Assembly (NCBI GenBank): GCA_031282925.1
Contig: JAITCT010000272.1
Span: 1-22,619, forward strand
Direction of reading: 5' to 3'
Source of the DNA: Dysgonamonadaceae bacterium
Lineage (GTDB): Bacteria > Bacteroidota > Bacteroidia > Bacteroidales > Azobacteroidaceae
Length of the DNA: 22,619 nucleotides
Every line of letters starts with the position of its first letter. The stretch's first letter is position 1. The translations under genes were made by a program, and so were the position numbers. Under the pieces are notes generated by a model. It saw nothing but the letters and a program-made list of their open reading frames with translations, made no database searches and had not been told where the DNA came from. Below, piece by piece: positions 486-17,935 of the stretch.

Positions 486-2882
486 CTATTTCATCGCATC
501 CAGTTTCTGTCTCAATTGATATTCGTCCATAACATACACATCACGGGGCTTGCTACCCTGCGAAGGCCCGACAATGCCTGCCTTTTCCATCTGATCCATC
601 AGCCGTCCCGCACGGTTGTAGCCGATTGAGAACTTCCGCTGAATCAGCGAAGTAGAACCCTGCTGATGGGCGACAATCAATTGGGCGGCTTCCTCAAACA
701 TGGAATCAAGGTCTTCCACGCTGAAATCGTCCGCTGATTTATCTTTCCTTTCCCCGACAAATTCAGGCAATATAAACGCCGTTGGATAAGCGGGCTGGCT
801 GCCGATAAATTTGGAGATGCGTTCCACTTCGGGCGTATCCACAAAAGCGCACTGTACGCGAACCATATCGCTTCCCTGGAAAAACAGCATATCGCCCCGG
901 CCAATCAGCTGGTTAGCGCCCTGACCGTCAAGAATCGTCCGCGAGTCAATGTTAGAAATGACGCGGAAAGCGATTCGCGCGGGGAAATTCGCTTTGATGG
1001 TTCCTGTAATGATGTTGGTAGTCGGCCTTTGGGTAGCGATAATCATGTGGATACCCACGGCGCGCGCTTTCTGGGCAATACGGGCAATGGGCAACTCAAT
1101 TTCCTTTCCGGCCGTCATGATCAAATCGCCAAACTCGTCAATAATAACAACGATGTAAGGCATGAATTTGTGGCCTCTCAGCGGATTCAAGCGGCGGTTG
1201 ACAAACTTTTCGTTGTATTCCTTCACATTCCGCGAGCCTGCTTTTTCCAGTAATTCGTAGCGGGAATCCATTTCTTCCGTCAGGGAGTTGAGCGTGTCGA
1301 TTACCTTGGTGAAATCGGTGATAATCGGTTTTTCAACATCGGGAAGTTTGGCTAAGAAATGCCTTTCAATAGCGGAATAAATCGTAAATTCAACCATTTT
1401 GGGGTCGATGAGTACGAATTTGAGTTGTCCCGGATGTTTTTTGTACAGCAGCGAGGTAATGGCAGCATTCAGGCCTACGGATTTTCCCTGTCCGGTTGCG
1501 CCTGCGACCAGCAAGTGCGGCAATCTGGCCAAATCGACCATAAACACTTCGTTCGTAATGGTGCGTCCCAGTGCAATCGGCAATTCAAAATTGGATTCCT
1601 GGTATTTCCGGGAAGAAATAATCGAATGCATGGATACGATTTGCGGGTCTTTGTTCGGGACTTCAATGCCGATGGTTCCTTTTCCGGGCATGGGCGCAAT
1701 GATGCGGATGCCCAAAGCCGCCAGATTCATGGCGATGTCATCTTCCAGGTTGCGGATTTTAGCGATGCGGATACCGTCTTCGGGAACAATTTCGTAAAGC
1801 GTAACCGTCGGGCCGACCGTTGCTTTGATGGATTTTATTTTTATCCCGTAATTTTCAAGCGTTTGGATAATCCGGTTTTTGTTGTTGGTCTGTTCGGACA
1901 TATCCACCTGCATATCGGTTTGATCGTATTTTTTCAACAAATCAACCGAAGGCAGCCGGTATTTGGATAAATCGGCGGTCGGGTCGTAAACGCCGAGTTC
2001 CTGCAGCAAACGATTGGCTTCTTCCTCGTCGTAACCGGAAGAAACATTCGTAGCCGGCGGGCGGGGTTCTTCATTTTCCGGTTTTTCAGGAGAAACGGGG
2101 AAAAACATTTCCTCCTCGTCCGCTTTGGGGATAATAACCTCGAAATCATTATCAGCAACCGGATTCTGCGGTTTTTCCGGCATTTTTTGAATAGCCGGTT
2201 CAGGATCAGCCATGATAAGACCGGAATCTTCCGGTTCCTTGCGTTCCGAATCTTGCGTTTTCGTTTTTATCTTCTTCTTATTATTAAAGGAAAAGAGTTT
2301 CCGTAAAAGCGGAATCGTTTTTCCGGAAACAAAAATCATCATAAGGATGAAAGCCAGCAGAATCAGCAGGAAAGTTCCCGGAACGCCGAGATTGAGCGTT
2401 ACGATTGCCGACAGTTCAAGTCCGTGCCGCCCTCCGATATAGATAGCCGTGTCCCGAAAGAAATTTCCAAAAAAGAAAGACAGTGCAAGCGATGTCCAAA
2501 TGGTGAGTACGGAGCAGATAATGAAATATTTAAGCAGGTTCACGTATTTGGCTTTCATCAAACGGAAGCCGGTGAACATCAGGAATAAAAGCAGAAAAAT
2601 AACGGCAACGCCGAATCCTTCGTTTAACAGGATATTGCTGAGAATAGCGCCTCTGGTTCCCGTCCAGTTTTCGATTCCGTCAATATGTCCCCAATAAAAC
2701 AGCGAAAGCCCTTCTATCCGGCTTTGGTCGGCGTCGCCCGCAAAGAAAAATGAAGTGGCGGCAATCGTTGCATAGACCGAAAACATGAATATAATCAAAC
2801 CCACCACAAAGTGAGTCGAATCGCTTTTGAAAAAAAGTTTAACTGCCGATGTTTTTTGTTGTTTATCTTTTTTGTGTTGCAT
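486..2882 (-). CDS. ftsK: DNA translocase FtsK/SpoIIIE family
   Basis: FtsK is a septum-anchored, ATP-driven DNA pump that clears and orients the chromosome terminus for XerCD dimer resolution during division. In this 798-aa protein (numbered from the ATG at 2882) the first 200 residues hold four membrane segments. An acidic, Pro-rich linker of about 110 residues follows. Then come the alpha/beta motor with Walker A GATGQGKS (about 461-468) and Walker B VVIIDEFGD (about 578-586), the ATQRP motif, and a C-terminal winged-helix gamma domain (IQRKFSIGYNRAGRLMDQME) that reads KOPS-type sites. The length is normal for Bacteroidetes FtsK, shorter than in E. coli because of the short linker. A longer reading from TTG at 2906 is possible, but a TAATTTTG promoter box covers that codon, so the ATG at 2882 is preferred. 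lolA follows 56 bp downstream. Confidence 0.96.
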   Translation of the reverse strand: MQHKKDKQQKTSAVKLFFKSDSTHFVVGLIIFMFSVYATIAATSFFFAGDADQSRIEGLSLFYWGHIDGIENWTGTRGAILSNILLNEGFGVAVIFLLLFLMFTGFRLMKAKYVNLLKYFIICSVLTIWTSLALSFFFGNFFRDTAIYIGGRHGLELSAIVTLNLGVPGTFLLILLAFILMMIFVSGKTIPLLRKLFSFNNKKKIKTKTQDSERKEPEDSGLIMADPEPAIQKMPEKPQNPVADNDFEVIIPKADEEEMFFPVSPEKPENEEPRPPATNVSSGYDEEEANRLLQELGVYDPTADLSKYRLPSVDLLKKYDQTDMQVDMSEQTNNKNRIIQTLENYGIKIKSIKATVGPTVTLYEIVPEDGIRIAKIRNLEDDIAMNLAALGIRIIAPMPGKGTIGIEVPNKDPQIVSMHSIISSRKYQESNFELPIALGRTITNEVFMVDLARLPHLLVAGATGQGKSVGLNAAITSLLYKKHPGQLKFVLIDPKMVEFTIYSAIERHFLAKLPDVEKPIITDFTKVIDTLNSLTEEMDSRYELLEKAGSRNVKEYNEKFVNRRLNPLRGHKFMPYIVVIIDEFGDLIMTAGKEIELPIARIAQKARAVGIHMIIATQRPTTNIITGTIKANFPARIAFRVISNIDSRTILDGQGANQLIGRGDMLFFQGSDMVRVQCAFVDTPEVERISKFIGSQPAYPTAFILPEFVGERKDKSADDFSVEDLDSMFEEAAQLIVAHQQGSTSLIQRKFSIGYNRAGRLMDQMEKAGIVGPSQGSKPRDVYVMDEYQLRQKLDAMK

Positions 2883-2904
2883 AAAAACCGGTGTTTTGAG
2901 GAGC

Positions 2905-2912
2905 AAAATTAC
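2905..2912 (-). promoter_or_regulatory. Putative ftsK promoter, -7 box TAATTTTG
   Basis: On the minus strand TAATTTTG matches the Bacteroidetes sigma-ABfr -7 consensus TAnnTTTG. It lies about 22 bp before the ATG at 2882. No convincing -33 TTTG was found at the usual distance. The position argues against the upstream TTG codon as the start of ftsK. Confidence 0.5.
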
Positions 2913-2937
2913 AAAAAATATTCAAGCAGCCGCCCAT

Positions 2938-2963
2938 AATTCGTAATTTGTAATTCGTAATTG
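2938..2963. repeat. Short AATTCGTAATT tandem repeat between gdhA and ftsK
   Basis: AATTCGTAATT is followed by a second near copy (TGTAATTCGTAATTGT) directly after the gdhA stop codon. The same GTAATTCGTAATT string, again next to CGCCC, recurs at 18085-18098 beside the end of the second SusD gene. It looks like a dispersed intergenic low-complexity repeat. No function is evident. Confidence 0.5.
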
Positions 2964-2966
2964 TAT

Positions 2967-4301
2967 TCACACAATTCCCTGCGCCATCATAGCCTGCGCC
3001 ACCTTCATAAATCCCGCCACATTAGCGCCTTTCACATAATTGATATAACCGTCCGGCTGTTTACCGTAAACAACGCATTGCCGGTGAATATCATTCATGA
3101 TTCGGTGCAGTTTGGCGTCAACTTCTTCTCCCGTCCATTGCAGGTGCATGGCGTTTTGGCTCATTTCCAGACCGGAGGTGGCGACGCCGCCGGCATTCAC
3201 CGCTTTACCCGGCGCAAATAAAATGCCTTTTTCAAGCATCAAATCAACGGCTTCGGCCGTACAACCCATATTGGAAATTTCCGCAACGCAAGTTACGCCG
3301 TTGTCAATCAACATTTGCGCGTCTTTTTCGTCCAGTTCGTTCTGAATCGCACAGGGAAGCGCAATATCCACTTTTTGTTGCCAGGGACGTTTGCCGGGGA
3401 AAAACTCAACGCCGTATTTCTTAGCGTAAGGCTCTACAACATCATCGCCCGTTGCACGGAGTTCCTGCATGTAATTGATTTTTTCGCCCGATATTCCGTC
3501 AGGGTCATACACATAACCGTCAGGCCCGGAGATGGTAACGACTTTTGCCCCTGATTGCGAGGCTTTCAAAGCGGCGCCCCAGGCCACATTCCCGAAACCG
3601 GAAACGGCAACGGTTTTGCCTTTGACGTCCAACCCTTTTTCTTTCAACATATCAAGTACAAAATAAATTCCTCCGAATCCGGTTGCTTCCGGACGAATTA
3701 ACGATCCGCCGTAATCCAAACCTTTTCCGGTGAAAGCGCCCGTATGCTCGCGGGCTAATTTTTTGAACATGCCGTACATGTAACCGACTTCACGCGATCC
3801 GACGCCGATATCGCCCGCAGGTACATCAATATCCGCACCGATATGCCTCCACAGTTCCAGCATGTAGGCCTGGCAGAAGCGCATGACTTCCGCACCGGAT
3901 TTTCCGCGTATGCTGAAATCCGAACCGCCTTTGCCGCCGCCCATCGGCAGGGTAGTCAGCGCATTTTTGAACGTTTGCTCAAAACCCAGGAATTTCAGGG
4001 ATGAAAGCGTTACCGAAGCATGAAAGCGCGTTCCGCCTTTGTATGGACCTATCGCATTGTTAAACTGAACCCGGTATCCGATATTTACACGAACTTTCCC
4101 GCTGTCGTCCACCCAGGGCACTTTGAAAGTAAAAATGCGGTCAGGCTCTACGATCCGCTCAATAATTCCCGCTTTTTCAAATTCGGGATGTTCGTTATAA
4201 ACGTCCTCAATGGAGTGAAGAACTTCTTTTACTGCCTGTAAATACTCGTGTTCTCCGGGGTGTTTTGCTTCAAGAGATTGAAGAATATTGTCTGTCTTCA
4301 T
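2967..4301 (-). CDS. gdhA: NADP-type glutamate dehydrogenase
   Basis: It catalyses the reversible reductive amination of 2-oxoglutarate to glutamate in the cytoplasm, the main ammonium entry point in many Bacteroidales. The 444-aa length is that of the hexameric small (about 50 kDa) NADP-dependent class. The substrate domain shows YKGGTRFH (87-94), the catalytic-lysine loop PMGGGKGGSDF (about 119-129, K124) and PAGDIGVGSREVGYM (161-175). The dinucleotide fold shows VAVSGFGNVAWGAA near residue 232. NIGYRVQFNNAIGPYKGG is typical of bacterial GdhA. It has its own promoter region (TACCTTTG box at 4337-4330) with an AACCGAA-T-TTCGGTT palindrome upstream, and is transcribed divergently from the acyl-CoA ligase. 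ftsK begins 85 bp past its stop and has its own promoter-like box, so the two are probably separate units. Coenzyme preference is inferred from the family. Confidence 0.97.
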   Translation of the reverse strand: MKTDNILQSLEAKHPGEHEYLQAVKEVLHSIEDVYNEHPEFEKAGIIERIVEPDRIFTFKVPWVDDSGKVRVNIGYRVQFNNAIGPYKGGTRFHASVTLSSLKFLGFEQTFKNALTTLPMGGGKGGSDFSIRGKSGAEVMRFCQAYMLELWRHIGADIDVPAGDIGVGSREVGYMYGMFKKLAREHTGAFTGKGLDYGGSLIRPEATGFGGIYFVLDMLKEKGLDVKGKTVAVSGFGNVAWGAALKASQSGAKVVTISGPDGYVYDPDGISGEKINYMQELRATGDDVVEPYAKKYGVEFFPGKRPWQQKVDIALPCAIQNELDEKDAQMLIDNGVTCVAEISNMGCTAEAVDLMLEKGILFAPGKAVNAGGVATSGLEMSQNAMHLQWTGEEVDAKLHRIMNDIHRQCVVYGKQPDGYINYVKGANVAGFMKVAQAMMAQGIV

Positions 4302-6329: not shown

Positions 6330-6347
6330 ATACCATATTTTTGGTAT
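6330..6347. promoter_or_regulatory. Palindromic operator candidate, distal copy (ATACC-N8-GGTAT)
   Basis: ATACC (6330-6334) and GGTAT (6343-6347) flank an 8-bp AT-rich spacer, with an A-run before the left arm. It is centred 43 bp (about four helical turns) upstream of a second copy at 6373-6390, so both would face the same side of the helix. No T-tract follows, which makes a terminator for the preceding gene unlikely. Confidence 0.55.
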
Positions 6348-6372: not shown

Positions 6373-6390
6373 ATACCTTATTTATGGTAT
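6373..6390. promoter_or_regulatory. Palindromic operator candidate, proximal copy (ATACC-N8-GGTAT)
   Basis: ATACC (6373-6377) and GGTAT (6386-6390) flank 8 bp. The last T of the right arm is also the first base of the TTG -33 element. The palindrome centre is about 43 bp before the predicted transcription start, a position typical of class II activators, though steric repression is equally possible. An identical arrangement stands before cysK at 15881-15898. Confidence 0.62.
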
Positions 6391-6420
6391 TGTGGCAATA
6401 AAAATAAACCTCTACCTTTA
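6390..6420 (+). promoter_or_regulatory. Promoter of HMA / TonB-plug operon
   Basis: TTG at 6390-6392, 20-bp spacer, then TACCTTTA at 6413-6420, one mismatch from TAnnTTTG. The leader to the ATG at 6479 would be about 50-55 nt. The -33 element overlaps the proximal palindrome. Confidence 0.5.
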
Positions 6421-6478: not shown

Positions 6479-7204
6479 ATGAAAAAAATGAATGTTTTAG
6501 TTTTATTGTTTGCTTTTATTGCAAGCAGCAGTGTGTATTCCTCAGACAATTCAGTAACGTTCAGAGTTGAAAACATGACTTGTGGCGGTTGTTCCGGAAA
6601 AATCAAAAAAACGGTAACGGCTATTGATGGAGTGTCAAGGTTTGAAGCAAACCTGGAAAAAAGAGTGGTTACGATCACTTACGACGATCGAAAAGTTAAT
6701 TCCGGTCAGTTGAAAGAAGCCATTGTGGCGATCAGGTACAACGCTACGGATTACGATCCGGACGAAGTAATTGCAAGAAAAATTTCTTTCAAAGCCGATC
6801 AAATCGGTTGCGGAGGATGTGCCGCTAAAGTAAAAAAGAATATCGGCGCCGAAGCGGGTATTATTAGCGTGGAAGTGGATTTACCGACGAAAGAAGTAAA
6901 AGTTGAGTACGACGCCAATAAAATTGCGTCGAAAGAAATTCAGAAAGATTTTCAGAAATTCAATTACACGGTAGTAAGGTATTGGACGAGTGAAAAAGTT
7001 AAATACGCTATTCTCAAAGTGGAACAAATCAATGACCCCGCCGAAGTAGAAAACAATCTGGCAACGGAAAAAGGTATTTTGGATGTTTCGGTTAACGAAA
7101 AAACAAAAGATGTTGCCATTGCCTATAATGCTACGATTATTACGGAAGATAATCTGGCCGACAGCATTGAGAAATATAATTTGAATTTGGTGGCGGAAAA
7201 TTAA
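6479..7204 (+). CDS. Exported protein with three HMA-like domains, two with CxxC
   Basis: The 241-aa protein has an N-terminal Sec signal (MKKMNVLVLLFAFIASSSVY, then SSD). Three ferredoxin-like HMA units follow. Unit 1 (about 25-90) has MTCGGCSGKIKK with C35 and C38. Unit 2 (about 101-166) has IGCGGCAAKVKK with C111 and C114. Unit 3 (about 174-237) keeps the strand and helix pattern (ILDVSVNEKTKDVAIAY) but has no cysteine. HMA domains bind Cu(I), Zn(II) or similar soft metals through CxxC. Here they would act in the periplasm, as a metallochaperone, a scavenger or perhaps a thiol-handling protein. The next gene, 26 bp downstream, encodes a plug-domain protein with its own Cys cluster, and the two look like one operon. 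The A-rich, G-containing sequence AAGAAAGAG before the ATG may serve as ribosome site. The metal is unknown. Confidence 0.85.
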   Translation: MKKMNVLVLLFAFIASSSVYSSDNSVTFRVENMTCGGCSGKIKKTVTAIDGVSRFEANLEKRVVTITYDDRKVNSGQLKEAIVAIRYNATDYDPDEVIARKISFKADQIGCGGCAAKVKKNIGAEAGIISVEVDLPTKEVKVEYDANKIASKEIQKDFQKFNYTVVRYWTSEKVKYAILKVEQINDPAEVENNLATEKGILDVSVNEKTKDVAIAYNATIITEDNLADSIEKYNLNLVAEN

Positions 7205-7230: not shown

Positions 7231-8028
7231 ATGAAAGCAAATGTTAGATTATTAAGTGTTGCGTTGGGGTTGCTGTTGTCAATTGGAGGTCTTAGCGCTC
7301 AAACAATCAAAGGAAAAGTGGTAGATAAAAACGGTGAGCCGATTTCCGGAGCAGTTATTTCTTACGGAAGCAATAACGGATCCACTTCCGATGCCAATGG
7401 GGAATTTACCGTTGATAGAAAAGATGCAAGCGATAAATTTACCGTTATTTTATTGGGATTCAAACAAAAAGACGTTAAACTGAACGGTAAGTCAAAAAAC
7501 CTGATTATCACGTTAGAAGAAGATACTAAAGACTTGGATCAGGTAGTTGTTGTCGGTTATGGAAAGTCGTCGAAAAGGAAAGCGACCGGAACCGTAAGCA
7601 CCATCACGAGAGATGTACTGGAACAGTATCCGGGAACAAGCGTTTTGGATGTTTTACAAGGCAGGATTGCCGGACTTACGTTAACCCGAACTTCCGGATT
7701 GCCGGGTTCATCGGTTTCGATAAATATTCGCGGAGTAACAACTATTGACGAAGGTTTTGCCGATTCTTGCGGATCGGGCGGATGTTGCGGTGTTACGGAA
7801 GGAACAAAAGTTGAACCTCTGATTGTTATTGATGGCGTGCCGTTTATCAATGAAAGTATTTCACCGCTGGACATCGGCGCGGTTGGAGCGGTTGGCCCGT
7901 TGGCAAGCCTCAGCACTGCCGACATTGAACGCATTGACGTGTTGAAAGATTCGGATGCTACCGCTATTTACGGTTCGAGAGGAGCTAACGGCGTGATTCT
8001 GATAACTACGAGGCATAGTCTGGATTAA
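7231..8028 (+). CDS. Plug-only SusC/TonB-receptor-like protein with Cys cluster
   Basis: The 265-aa protein has a signal peptide (ending LSAQ, about residue 24). A carboxypeptidase-regulatory-like beta-sandwich follows (about 25-95: IKGKVVDKNGEPISGAVISY), then a full TonB plug domain (about 105-262: QVVVVGYGKSSKRKATGTVS, VLQGRIAGLTL, SINIRGVTT, IERIDVLKDSDATAIYGSRG, GVILITT). It stops right after the plug, with none of the 22-stranded barrel of about 700 residues. An insertion between SINIRGVTT and PLIVIDGVPF holds C180, C185 and C186 (CGSGGCC), unusual in plugs. No barrel remnant follows, and the ORF is clean. It is either a decayed SusC or, as I think more likely given its HMA partner and intact signal, a stand-alone periplasmic plug protein. 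Confidence is high for the domains, low for the role. Confidence 0.82.
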   Translation: MKANVRLLSVALGLLLSIGGLSAQTIKGKVVDKNGEPISGAVISYGSNNGSTSDANGEFTVDRKDASDKFTVILLGFKQKDVKLNGKSKNLIITLEEDTKDLDQVVVVGYGKSSKRKATGTVSTITRDVLEQYPGTSVLDVLQGRIAGLTLTRTSGLPGSSVSINIRGVTTIDEGFADSCGSGGCCGVTEGTKVEPLIVIDGVPFINESISPLDIGAVGAVGPLASLSTADIERIDVLKDSDATAIYGSRGANGVILITTRHSLD

Positions 8029-15880: not shown

Positions 15881-15898
15881 ATACCACAAACAAGGTAT
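15881..15898. promoter_or_regulatory. Palindromic operator candidate before cysK (ATACC-N8-GGTAT)
   Basis: ATACC (15881-15885), 8 bp, GGTAT (15894-15898), preceded by an A-run as in the two copies at 6330 and 6373. GGTATTG again joins the right arm to the -33 TTG. Arm sequence, spacing and distance to the -7 box are identical to the proximal copy of the HMA operon. Confidence 0.65.
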
Positions 15899-15928
15899 TG
15901 CCCGTTTAAAATTTTTCCACCATCTTTG
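15898..15928 (+). promoter_or_regulatory. Promoter of the cysK operon
   Basis: TTG at 15898-15900, 20-bp spacer, CATCTTTG at 15921-15928 (TAnnTTTG with one mismatch). The leader to the ATG at 15963 is about 30 nt. The -33 element overlaps the palindrome. Confidence 0.52.
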
Positions 15929-15962: not shown

Positions 15963-16898
15963 ATGGCTAAAATTGCGAAAAAACTTACAGAATTAATCGG
16001 GAATACGCCTTTGCTCGAACTGAGTAAAGTGCAACGCCTGCAAAACATCAACGCCCATGTCGCAGGGAAGCTCGAATACCTGAATCCCGCCCGCAGTGTG
16101 AAAGACCGCATCGGCCTGGCGCTGATTGAAGATGCTGAAAACAGTGGTCTGCTTACGGCAAACAGCGTTATTATCGAACCGACCAGCGGCAATACCGGCA
16201 TTGCACTGGCTTTCATTGCCGCCTCCAAAGGATATAAACTTATCCTTACGATGCCTGAAACAATGAGCCTCGAACGGCGCAGCCTGTTACAGGCCCTGGG
16301 TGCGGAAATTGTCCTCACGCCCGGCTTTGAAGGAATGAGCGGCGCTATCCGCAAAGCGGAAGAATTGCAAAAGAACTATCCGACTGCTTTCATCCCGCAA
16401 CAGTTTCGTAACCCTTCCAATCCGCAAATACACCGCGTTACTACTGCTGAGGAAATCTGGCGGGATACGGACGGAACAGTAGATATTTTCGTGTCGGCGG
16501 TGGGTACAGGAGGTACGATAACGGGTGTAGGCGAAGTGCTTAAAAAATACAAGCCCGACGTCAAAGTGATTGCCGTAGAGCCTTACGATTCGCCTGTGCT
16601 TTCGGGTGGCAAACCCGGTCCGCACAAAATCCAGGGCATCGGAGCAGGATTCGTTCCGAAAGTGTTTAACGCTCATATCGTTGATGAAATTATCAAGGTA
16701 AAGAACGACGAAGCCATTGAAACGAGCCGTTTGCTGGCGCGGGAAGAAGGCTTGCTGGTCGGCATTTCATCGGGGGCGGCCGCATTTGCCGCATTGCAGG
16801 TTGCCAAACGGGTAGAAAACACAGGCAAAACCATTGTGGTTATTTTGCCGGATACGGGAGAACGCTATTTGTCAACACAGCTTTATCAATTCGACTAA
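15963..16898 (+). CDS. cysK: Cysteine synthase (O-acetylserine sulfhydrylase)
   Basis: PLP enzyme that replaces the acetyl group of O-acetylserine with sulfide, or with the sulfur of a thiocarboxylated carrier, to give cysteine. The 311 aa match the CysK/CysM family length. Visible are the N-terminal [10 protein letters not shown], the Schiff-base lysine in [11 protein letters not shown] (K47), the [11 protein letters not shown] substrate loop, the [13 protein letters not shown] phosphate-binding loop and [12 protein letters not shown] with the pyridine-contacting Ser. NPARSVKDR is nearer to CysK than to CysM by eye. It is the first gene of a tight operon with a ThiS-like carrier (12-bp gap) and a ThiF-like E1. 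That context, as in the CysM-CysO system, raises the chance that the sulfur donor is a protein thiocarboxylate. No serine acetyltransferase gene is in view. Confidence 0.96.
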
Positions 16899-16910
16899 CA
16901 TTATAAAATC

Positions 16911-17123
16911 ATGGCAAAAATCAAAGTAAACGGAGAACCGCAGGAACTGGAAAAACCCGTTACGCTTGCGGAATTGCTGGTATTAAACCGCATCACGCAA
17001 CCGGATATGGTGTCTATCCAACTGAACGGCGAATTTGTGTATAAAGAAGATTACTCTCGTGTCGTCAACGACGGCGACGATATTGATTTCCTGTATTTTA
17101 TGGGAGGAGGCAACATCCGATGA
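16911..17123 (+). CDS. ThiS/MoaD-family sulfur carrier with C-terminal extension
   Basis: 70 aa of the beta-grasp sulfur-carrier fold: IKVNGEPQELEKPVTLAELL, then VSIQLNGEFVYKEDY, SRVVNDGDDIDFLYFMGGG. Such carriers are adenylated at a terminal Gly-Gly by an E1 and then thiocarboxylated. Here three residues, NIR, follow the glycines, so the carrier as translated cannot be activated until trimmed. In Mycobacterium CysO and Wolinella HcyS systems a JAMM-type metalloprotease acts at this end of the carrier; no such gene is in the window. The stop codon TGA overlaps the ATG of the E1 (ATGA at 17120-17123), and the GGG codons read GGGAGGAGG, a strong Shine-Dalgarno for that gene. A thiamine ThiS is possible, but no thi genes are near. 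Confidence 0.88.
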   Translation: MAKIKVNGEPQELEKPVTLAELLVLNRITQPDMVSIQLNGEFVYKEDYSRVVNDGDDIDFLYFMGGGNIR

Positions 17124-17935
17124 ATTTTACGGAAGAACAAATCGTTCGCTACAGCCGTCATATCCTGCTTCAGGATGTAGGAGTTGAAGGGCAGGAAAAA
17201 ATCAGCGCCGGCAAAGTATTGATAGTGGGAGCAGGAGGTTTGGGAGCTCCGGTCGCATTCTATCTGGCGGCAGCGGGCGTGGGGACTGTCGGTATCATTG
17301 ACGGCGACGTAGTGGATTTGAGTAATTTGCAAAGGCAAATCATCCATTTTACGGCTGACGTAAACAAGGCCAAAGTAATTTCGGCAAAAGAAAAAATCAA
17401 TCAGTTGAATCCCGATGTGAAAGTAATTACTTACAATGAATTACTTACTTCGGAAAATGCGTTTGACGTTATCAGGGATTACGATTTTATAGTGGACGGC
17501 ACGGATAATTTCCCTGTCAAATTCCTTATCAACGATGCTTGCGTACTGGCGGGAAAACCGTTTTCACACGGCGGAATACTGCGGTTTGAAGGACAAACCT
17601 TAACTCGTGTGCCCGGCACTGCATGTTACCGTTGCCTGTTCCATTCGCCTCCTCCGCCCAATGCCGTGCCGACATGTTCTCAGGCAGGCGTACTGGGTGC
17701 AATAGCGGGGATGCTGGGAACGATTCAGGCGGCGGAAGCGCTGAAATATTTCACCGGCGCAGGAGAGTTGCTAACCAACCGCTTACTTACTTTCAACGCA
17801 AAAAGCATGGATTTCAGGAAAATCACGGTCAAGCGGGCGGTTTCCTGTCCCGTTTGCGGGGAACATCCGGTAATTACGCAGTTGATAGATTATGAACAGG
17901 CGGCGTGCGAATTAAAAACTCATGCAAAAATATAA
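17120..17935 (+). CDS. ThiF/MoeB/HesA-family adenylyltransferase (E1-like)
   Basis: It adenylates the C-terminal glycine of the partner carrier as the first step of thiocarboxylate formation. The 271-aa protein shows the nucleotide fold GAGGLGAPVAFYLAAAGVG (37-55), DGDVVDLSNLQRQ (61-73, with the Arg and Gln that contact ATP), VDGTDNF (125-131), the zinc ligands CYRC (169-172) and CPVC (243-246), and the PTCSQAGVLG loop with C186. The length is that of MoeB/ThiF without the rhodanese domain of MoeZ and without a fused JAMM protease. It overlaps the carrier gene by four bases, so the two are translationally coupled. Its real partner is most likely that carrier, with CysK as sulfur acceptor. moeB or thiF would be naming by similarity only. 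Confidence 0.92.
   Translation: MNFTEEQIVRYSRHILLQDVGVEGQEKISAGKVLIVGAGGLGAPVAFYLAAAGVGTVGIIDGDVVDLSNLQRQIIHFTADVNKAKVISAKEKINQLNPDVKVITYNELLTSENAFDVIRDYDFIVDGTDNFPVKFLINDACVLAGKPFSHGGILRFEGQTLTRVPGTACYRCLFHSPPPPNAVPTCSQAGVLGAIAGMLGTIQAAEALKYFTGAGELLTNRLLTFNAKSMDFRKITVKRAVSCPVCGEHPVITQLIDYEQAACELKTHAKI

Follow-up and report, generated by a model that had tools for sequence, protein, structure and literature searches.

A palindrome at fixed distance from the -7 element marks a conserved, probable sulfur-linked regulon and points to a candidate NarL/LuxR-type regulator in Bacteroidales

The 22,619-nucleotide stretch of DNA analyzed here (the window) raises the question of why a cysteine synthase operon and an operon for an exported HMA-domain protein share one palindrome at one promoter position. 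Upstream of cysK, an exact copy of ATACC-N8-GGTAT (ATACCACAAACAAGGTAT; positions 15881 to 15898, forward strand) with NarL-like 7-2-7 geometry is followed by TG, 20 bp, and CATCTTTG (together 15899 to 15928, forward strand). The last element, at 15921 to 15928, is a -7 box of the sigma-ABfr type at a spacing of 22 bp from the palindrome (N22); TAnnTTTG is described as the -7 sequence that the primary sigma factor of Bacteroidetes uses (PMC7366714). Before the HMA operon, another exact copy (ATACCTTATTTATGGTAT; 6373 to 6390, forward strand) is likewise followed by TG and 20 bp, and the -7 box of this operon (TACCTTTA; 6413 to 6420, forward strand) again lies at N22. The identical palindrome at identical distance that a preliminary description had reported was thus confirmed, with exactly 22 bp to the -7 box at both promoters. 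Its claim that the spacers are unrelated held for the 20 bp leading up to the -7 box and failed for the eight inner bases of the palindrome, which are constrained. A TTG at the junction of palindrome and spacer in the cysK promoter stands where a -33 element would be expected to lie. The HMA operon has a second perfect palindrome (6330 to 6347, forward strand), without a -7 box at N22; the two copies, both perfect, are 43 bp apart, or about four helical turns.

The 22.6-kb window contained three exact copies of the palindrome, whereas 400 first-order Markov sequences averaged 0.01 (maximum, 1); the copies are therefore not attributable to chance. Two of the three had a -7 box at N22 (Markov mean, 0.0). 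With up to two mismatches allowed, the motif was not enriched in the window (12 sites versus 7.5 expected), indicating that the signal resides in the exact copies. The analysis accordingly used sites that matched exactly or at 9/10. The consensus of 155 distinct anchored sites (palindromes with the required -7 box) was AAAW-ATACC-MYAWWTRK-GGTAT-TK, then 20 bp, then TAMYTTTG, in which the core letters and the box were set by site selection and the flanks and center were not.

Downstream of its promoter, cysK (15963 to 16898; ATG at 15963; PF00291, PALP) encodes cysteine synthase and is followed by genes for a ThiS-like, CysO-like sulfur-carrier protein (16911 to 17123; PF02597) and a ThiF/MoeB-like E1 enzyme that would charge the carrier (17120 to 17935; PF00899), all on the forward strand. 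Operons combining ThiS, E1, JAB, and cysteine synthase genes have been proposed to encode sulfur-transfer pathways (PMC1779556). The HMA operon, also on the forward strand, encodes an exported protein with three HMA domains (6479 to 7204; ATG at 6479; PF00403) and a SusC-type plug protein containing CGSGGCC (7231 to 8028; PF07715 and PF13715). The latter is too short for a barrel and gave no barrel match. Similar short SusC-like proteins are also encoded 3' of the HMA gene in genomes G022, G020, and G041.

The genome to which the window belongs (G000; 2.04 Mb, 74% complete) contained 12 exact palindromes and none of the reversed control. Nine of these had a -7 box at N22 (C4:6373, C4:15881, and one each on contigs C26, C65, C99, C147, C249, C293, and C313), two of the nine boxes ending in TTTA. 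The three unanchored palindromes were the extra HMA copy and single copies on C144 and C207. We judged the tandem-repeat-like copy at C144:3725 and the copy within an open reading frame (ORF) at C207:7040 to be chance occurrences, as was a site with one mismatch inside an ORF at C83:1214. Three further sites had two mismatches, a level at which the control rises too (14 matches against 7). Genes behind anchored sites in this genome include cysK-thiS-thiF, DsrE-TusA, two SusC receptors, a C39-like protein, and a small Cys-rich protein; others encode proteins without a Pfam match. At C313, only a 64-amino-acid ORF precedes the contig edge, and the promoter resembles several in G022, including one before a NifD-like gene. 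A one-mismatch site (TTACC...) on C313 lies 28 bp upstream of a NifH-like gene. On this contig (locus L021), NifB-like and NifH-like genes of the window's organism occupy 1014 to 3245 on the minus strand.

If the palindrome is functional, orthologous promoters should retain it. A CysK search of 45 genomes returned 47 matches in 35 genomes, from which we dropped the G001 gene, whose contig offers nothing upstream of it, and the second piece of the gene that is split in G027. A promoter was counted when its palindrome matched at 9/10 or better and its -7 box, at N22, at 5/6 or better. By this measure, 38 of the 45 testable cysK genes in the family carried the site, compared to 0 of 2,700 shuffled upstream regions. 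Sites also lay directly upstream of cysK in Parabacteroides chinchillae, P. gordonii, Dysgonomonas sp. 520, a Muribaculaceae metagenome-assembled genome (MAG), and a Bacteroidaceae MAG. The ORF caller missed some first genes, and cysK at L234, L251, and L266 was placed by tblastn; cysK genes placed in this way had the site in MAGs of Bacteroides and Bacteroidaceae and in Prevotella sp. KH2C16. Absence of the motif from orthologous cysK promoters, which the preliminary description had named as the outcome that would speak against it, is thus not what was found. The spacing was nearly invariant: of the 28 exact TAnnTTTG boxes found no more than 60 bp from the last palindrome before cysK, 27 lay at N22. 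The G002 promoter has an exact box at N42 plus a 5/6 box at N22, and in G039 the copy with the box matches at 9/10 and adjoins an unanchored 10/10 site.

Presence of the site before cysK followed that of a GerE-domain protein considered below: it was found at 38 of 41 cysK promoters in regulator-positive genomes (all except those of G005, G020, and one copy in G023) and at none of the four in regulator-negative genomes (G025, G027, G038, and G040). These comparisons bear on whether the motif is simply a general enhancer-like promoter element or a mobile repeat rather than a regulatory operator. Such an element would account for the fixed distance to the core promoter, the many SusC targets, and the likeness of some promoters beyond the motif within one genome (several in G022). 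We nevertheless regard this explanation as extremely improbable, given that none of the testable cysK genes in the four regulator-negative genomes has the site upstream, that the palindrome is kept while its central bases vary, and that orthologous cysK promoters retain the motif while their spacers differ.

The HMA protein was found in 6 of 45 genomes. With the G036 locus left out because it is cut by a contig end, footprinting of the regions upstream of HMA orthologs showed the palindrome to be kept in all five testable genomes, which span two genera and 48 to 100% identity and have 10/10 matches throughout. The spacing was N22 in four of them and N23 in G008. Two palindromes precede the HMA gene in G022 and G008 as well, at spacings different from the 43 bp of the window.

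Across 117 relatives, the palindrome plus TTK was frequent mainly in the window's family, though some members lacked it, and many genomes of other families of the order were at about the level of the control palindromes. The anchored form occurred in 35 of 48 genomes (the own genome, 44 family members, and 3 others added for their many palindromes), with no control matches. In a phylum-wide draw of 148 genomes, 6 of the 147 from other orders had one anchored match each, and the control had none. Among 22 handles reached via named regulator loci, 18 had anchored sites and the control none; at least 2 of the 22 duplicate G004 and G026, which leaves 16 of 20. The 80 named regulator loci (936 kb) held 19 exact palindromes and no reversed ones. 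In G003 and G021, which belong to one genus (1.0 to 1.2 Mb, 99% complete), no regulator, anchored site, or cysK match was found.

Which protein might bind the palindrome? A protein with a GerE domain (NarL/LuxR type) was the first gene product at three anchored sites, and its gene is divergent from cysK in G008 and G004. At an E value of 1e-15, matches were found in 41 of 63 genomes, one per genome apart from G023, the weakest of them (26 to 35% identity, outside the family) possibly not being orthologs. In G023, the regulator gene is in two fragments (G023:C179:7180-7819), and this genome has only one anchored site. The ortholog in the own genome (G000:C40:2812-3456; 67% identity) matched PF00196 (GerE) with an E value of 2.5e-15. 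The protein of ∼215 amino acids comprises a receiver-like N terminus and a GerE DNA-binding domain, and profile A2 of the family aligned with VraR over residues 2 to 206 and with most of RcsB and NarL. The PF00072 receiver model matched one of four scanned proteins, below the cutoff. D8, D54, S82, and K104, which would correspond to the phosphorylation residues of the family (acidic pair, Asp, Thr/Ser, and Lys), were invariant in 12 regulator sequences, with the second acidic position occupied by Asn. These residues are kept, but the acidic pair is incomplete and the receiver model mostly fails, so the protein may or may not be phosphorylated. No cognate histidine kinase was recognized by eye among 14 larger, unannotated clusters of neighboring genes. 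Thiol sensing through Cys126 was also considered but is not claimed: this residue was invariant in the first 12 sequences and was neither invariant nor 90% conserved in a set of 26.

Anchored sites and the regulator co-occurred strongly. In the 48 genomes, anchored sites were present in 32 of 34 regulator-positive genomes versus 3 of 14 regulator-negative ones (P = 1.1e-6), and among family members at least 60% complete in 30 of 32 versus 0 of 10 (Fisher P = 4.5e-8), both P values overstating independence because the genomes share ancestry. The regulator-positive genomes without an anchored site were G007 and G031, the latter having one that ends in TTTA; the regulator-negative genomes with anchored sites were G001 and G044, each 53% complete, and G060.

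Gene neighborhoods link the regulator to sulfur metabolism. Half of the named regulator loci (40 of 80) had cysK, an OAH-sulfhydrylase-type gene, or MnmA within ∼6 kb, and 36 immediate neighbors were MnmA (19), OAH-sulfhydrylase-type (9), or CysK (8), although some of the OAH-sulfhydrylase-type neighbors are only 32 to 34% identical. In a Muribaculaceae MAG the order is site-cysK-regulator. Of 29 regulator loci with upstream sequence, 7 (G020, G004, G026, G011, G036, G008, and G009) had a 10/10 palindrome no more than 230 bp from the regulator start, and 3 more had a 9/10 palindrome within 90 bp. Four genomes (G004, G008, G009, and G011) have a single palindrome with -7 boxes on both sides, one toward cysK and one toward the regulator; in all, palindromes with -7 boxes on both sides numbered five. 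No palindrome of at least 9/10 was found near the regulator start at the other 19 of the 29 loci, the best in the own genome being 7/10. Autoregulation is thus not general, which slightly lowers our confidence in this regulator model.

The 7 to 10 regulator loci with sites are also what would be seen if the GerE protein were merely a target like any other and a different regulator (a LysR or MarR protein or a different NarL-type paralog) bound the palindrome. That Bacteroides reticulotermitis has two such GerE paralogs also speaks for this explanation. The 7-2-7 geometry as in NarL sites, the near single-copy profile, and the sulfur-gene neighborhoods favor the GerE protein instead, and we consider binding by another regulator unlikely.

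Two other regulator families were weighed against the same genomes. CysB/Cbl (LysR) and CymR (Rrf2) govern regulons that control cysK and sulfur uptake, and Rrf2 regulators control cysteine genes in Firmicutes. An Rrf2-family repressor (CymR/IscR-like) covering the -33 region from the palindrome and repressing sulfur genes when cysteine is plentiful would have precedent, and in G038 an Rrf2 gene ends 25 bp upstream of cysK. Profile counts over the 45 genomes largely refute this idea, which we hold to be highly improbable: Rrf2 exceeded the cutoff in one genome only, G038, itself without an anchored site, and thirteen others gave weak, short matches below the cutoff. In the G038 locus (L344; G038:C5:120-1515), the Rrf2 gene directly precedes a siteless cysK; this relative lacks the GerE regulator, which the Rrf2 protein seems to have replaced. 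For class II activation by CRP, a site at about -42 is characteristic, and the position of the palindrome suits a CRP/FNR-family class II activator; CRP-type helix-turn-helix (HTH) domains exceeded the cutoff in 41 of 45 genomes. However, such HTHs (subfamilies pooled) occurred equally in the siteless genomes G003, G013 to G015, G025, G027, G032, G038, and G040, so their presence does not track the motif, and the half-site is unlike those generally known for CRP or FNR. Control by a CRP/FNR protein is accordingly quite improbable.

The palindrome is most likely the landing site of a hitherto undescribed relative of NarL, the nitrate regulator. An engineered 7-2-7 NarL site is TACCCCTAAAGGGGTA, and NarL sites are given at -40 to -49 for napF and -38 to -47 for yeaR (PMC4549865); TACCCTAAATAGGGTA, found at five G008 promoters, has 12 of 16 bases in common with the former. 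As at these E. coli promoters controlled by NarL/NarP, TACC-N8-GGTA lies upstream of the core promoter and consists of two inverted TACC-type heptamers separated by two bases, the arrangement that NarL prefers. The candidate regulator shares with NarL/NarP a GerE domain and, apparently, a receiver-like N terminus. Unlike the targets of NarL/NarP, which serve nitrate respiration, those described here are largely sulfur genes behind sigma-ABfr promoters, and the regulator has a degenerate receiver (none of the four proteins scanned reached the cutoff of the Pfam receiver model). The regulon resembles those of CysB/Cbl and CymR in joining cysK with other sulfur genes but would depend on an unrelated protein family, Rrf2 being below the cutoff or absent in 44 of 45 genomes.

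We consider it probable that the palindrome serves as operator for a regulon of sulfur supply, bound by a NarL/LuxR-type dimer that most likely acts as a class II activator under sulfur scarcity. According to this model, a dimer of the single-copy regulator would occupy the inverted 7-2-7 heptamers. The site center lies ∼31 bp upstream of TAnnTTTG, which would place it near -42, with the right half-site abutting a weak -33 element. From there, the regulator would most likely contact the housekeeping RNA polymerase directly, and would activate transcription during a shortage of cysteine or reduced sulfur. The constant distance and the five two-sided palindromes fit activation by polymerase contact better than repression.

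To describe the regulon, we surveyed the first genes behind 99 anchored sites on ∼90 stretches from genomes picked for many sites plus the own genome. SusC/TonB genes formed the largest class (26 of 99), followed by 11 CysK, 6 PstS-like, 5 OAH-sulfhydrylase-type, 5 DsrE, and 4 HMA entries, the last including two sites before one gene. Less frequent were sulfite reductase-like (3), GerE regulator (3), NifD-like (2), and threonine synthase (2) genes, along with many singletons, several without an evident sulfur link. Profiles exceeded their cutoffs for targets encoding OAH sulfhydrylase, threonine synthase, MnmA, and family 2B encapsulin and fell below curated cutoffs for a NirA-like reductase with a TusA tail, MetQ, a methionine gamma-lyase-like enzyme, and YeiH; an NlpA/MetQ target was over the Pfam cutoff. 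A JAB-domain gene lies close to DsrE-TusA, and the gene 3' of the encapsulin encodes a class V aminotransferase (PF00266). Farther afield, sites precede MnmA in Phocaeicola barnesiae and both a regulator paralog and an OAH-sulfhydrylase-type gene in B. reticulotermitis. The sulfur regulon suggested in the preliminary description is well supported by these recurring co-targets in sulfur assimilation and transfer, even though SusC/TonB genes, whose substrates are unassigned, remain the largest single class and count as a point against the model. The only basis for the tie to soft metals also raised there is the HMA/CopZ-like members. Also counting against the model, feoB, HmuY-like, and TonB genes have anchored sites in Parabacteroides, Prevotella, and relatives, possibly reflecting a second, iron- or heme-responsive regulator with a similar palindrome. 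These sites often read ATACCTA-N4-TAGGTAT (L277 to L279, L283, L286, and L293).

By sequence comparison, the NifD-like targets and the NifH-like protein of the own genome are closer to methylthio-alkane reductase, the enzyme of structure 9FMG (PMC12552129), than to nitrogenase. The NifD-like target at L098 scored 844 bits to MarD (9fmg_A) versus 125 to the best chain named nitrogenase alpha, and the second scored 300 versus 120 bits. The G000 NifH-like protein scored 517 bits to MarH (9fmg_D) versus 277 to nitrogenase; nif-like genes here thus need not mean nitrogen fixation. A MarD relative among the targets recalls the sulfur starvation response described for methylthio-alkane reductase (PMC12552129). 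In a cyanobacterium, the encapsulin SrpI is reported, together with a cysteine desulfurase, to be induced by sulfur starvation (PMC8049743), and the targets here likewise include a family 2 encapsulin shell with a class V aminotransferase/cysteine-desulfurase-type neighbor. Both of those systems belong to other phyla, and the regulator proposed here is NarL-like. At L107/L349 (G012:C323), a family 2B encapsulin shell gene followed by the class V aminotransferase (cysteine-desulfurase-type) gene has its own palindrome; this pair adjoins DsrE-TusA-JAB and cysK-ThiS.

A more specific version, which we put forward tentatively and at somewhat less than an even chance, is that sulfur economy in Bacteroidales is run by an orphan activator of the NarL type that has a degenerate receiver and senses a sulfur metabolite or the thiol state without a kinase. 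Through one operator at -42 it would switch on cysteine and methionine synthesis, sulfur-carrier transfer, nitrogenase-like methylthio-alkane reductases, sulfur encapsulins, and uptake by SusC/D, PstS-like, and HMA systems. If so, the ligands of the SusC/D, PstS-like, and HMA systems would be sulfur compounds or thiol-bound metals.

Together, these data indicate that the shared palindrome is real, conserved, and wider in its reach than the preliminary description supposed, that it probably marks a sulfur-supply regulon of Bacteroidales, and that the regulator is a strong candidate. Bacteroidales are major gut bacteria, active in cysteine and H2S turnover. Among the matches listed from the open-licence PMC literature (titles and abstract openings), we found no description of how sulfur assimilation is controlled in this order. 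With the operator defined, a regulator proposed, and the targets listed, sulfur control can be put to a direct test in strains of Parabacteroides and Dysgonomonas. For SusC/D, HMA, and nitrogenase-like genes without an assigned role, the operator hints at a physiological setting; the nitrogenase-like genes could otherwise pass for nitrogen fixation genes.
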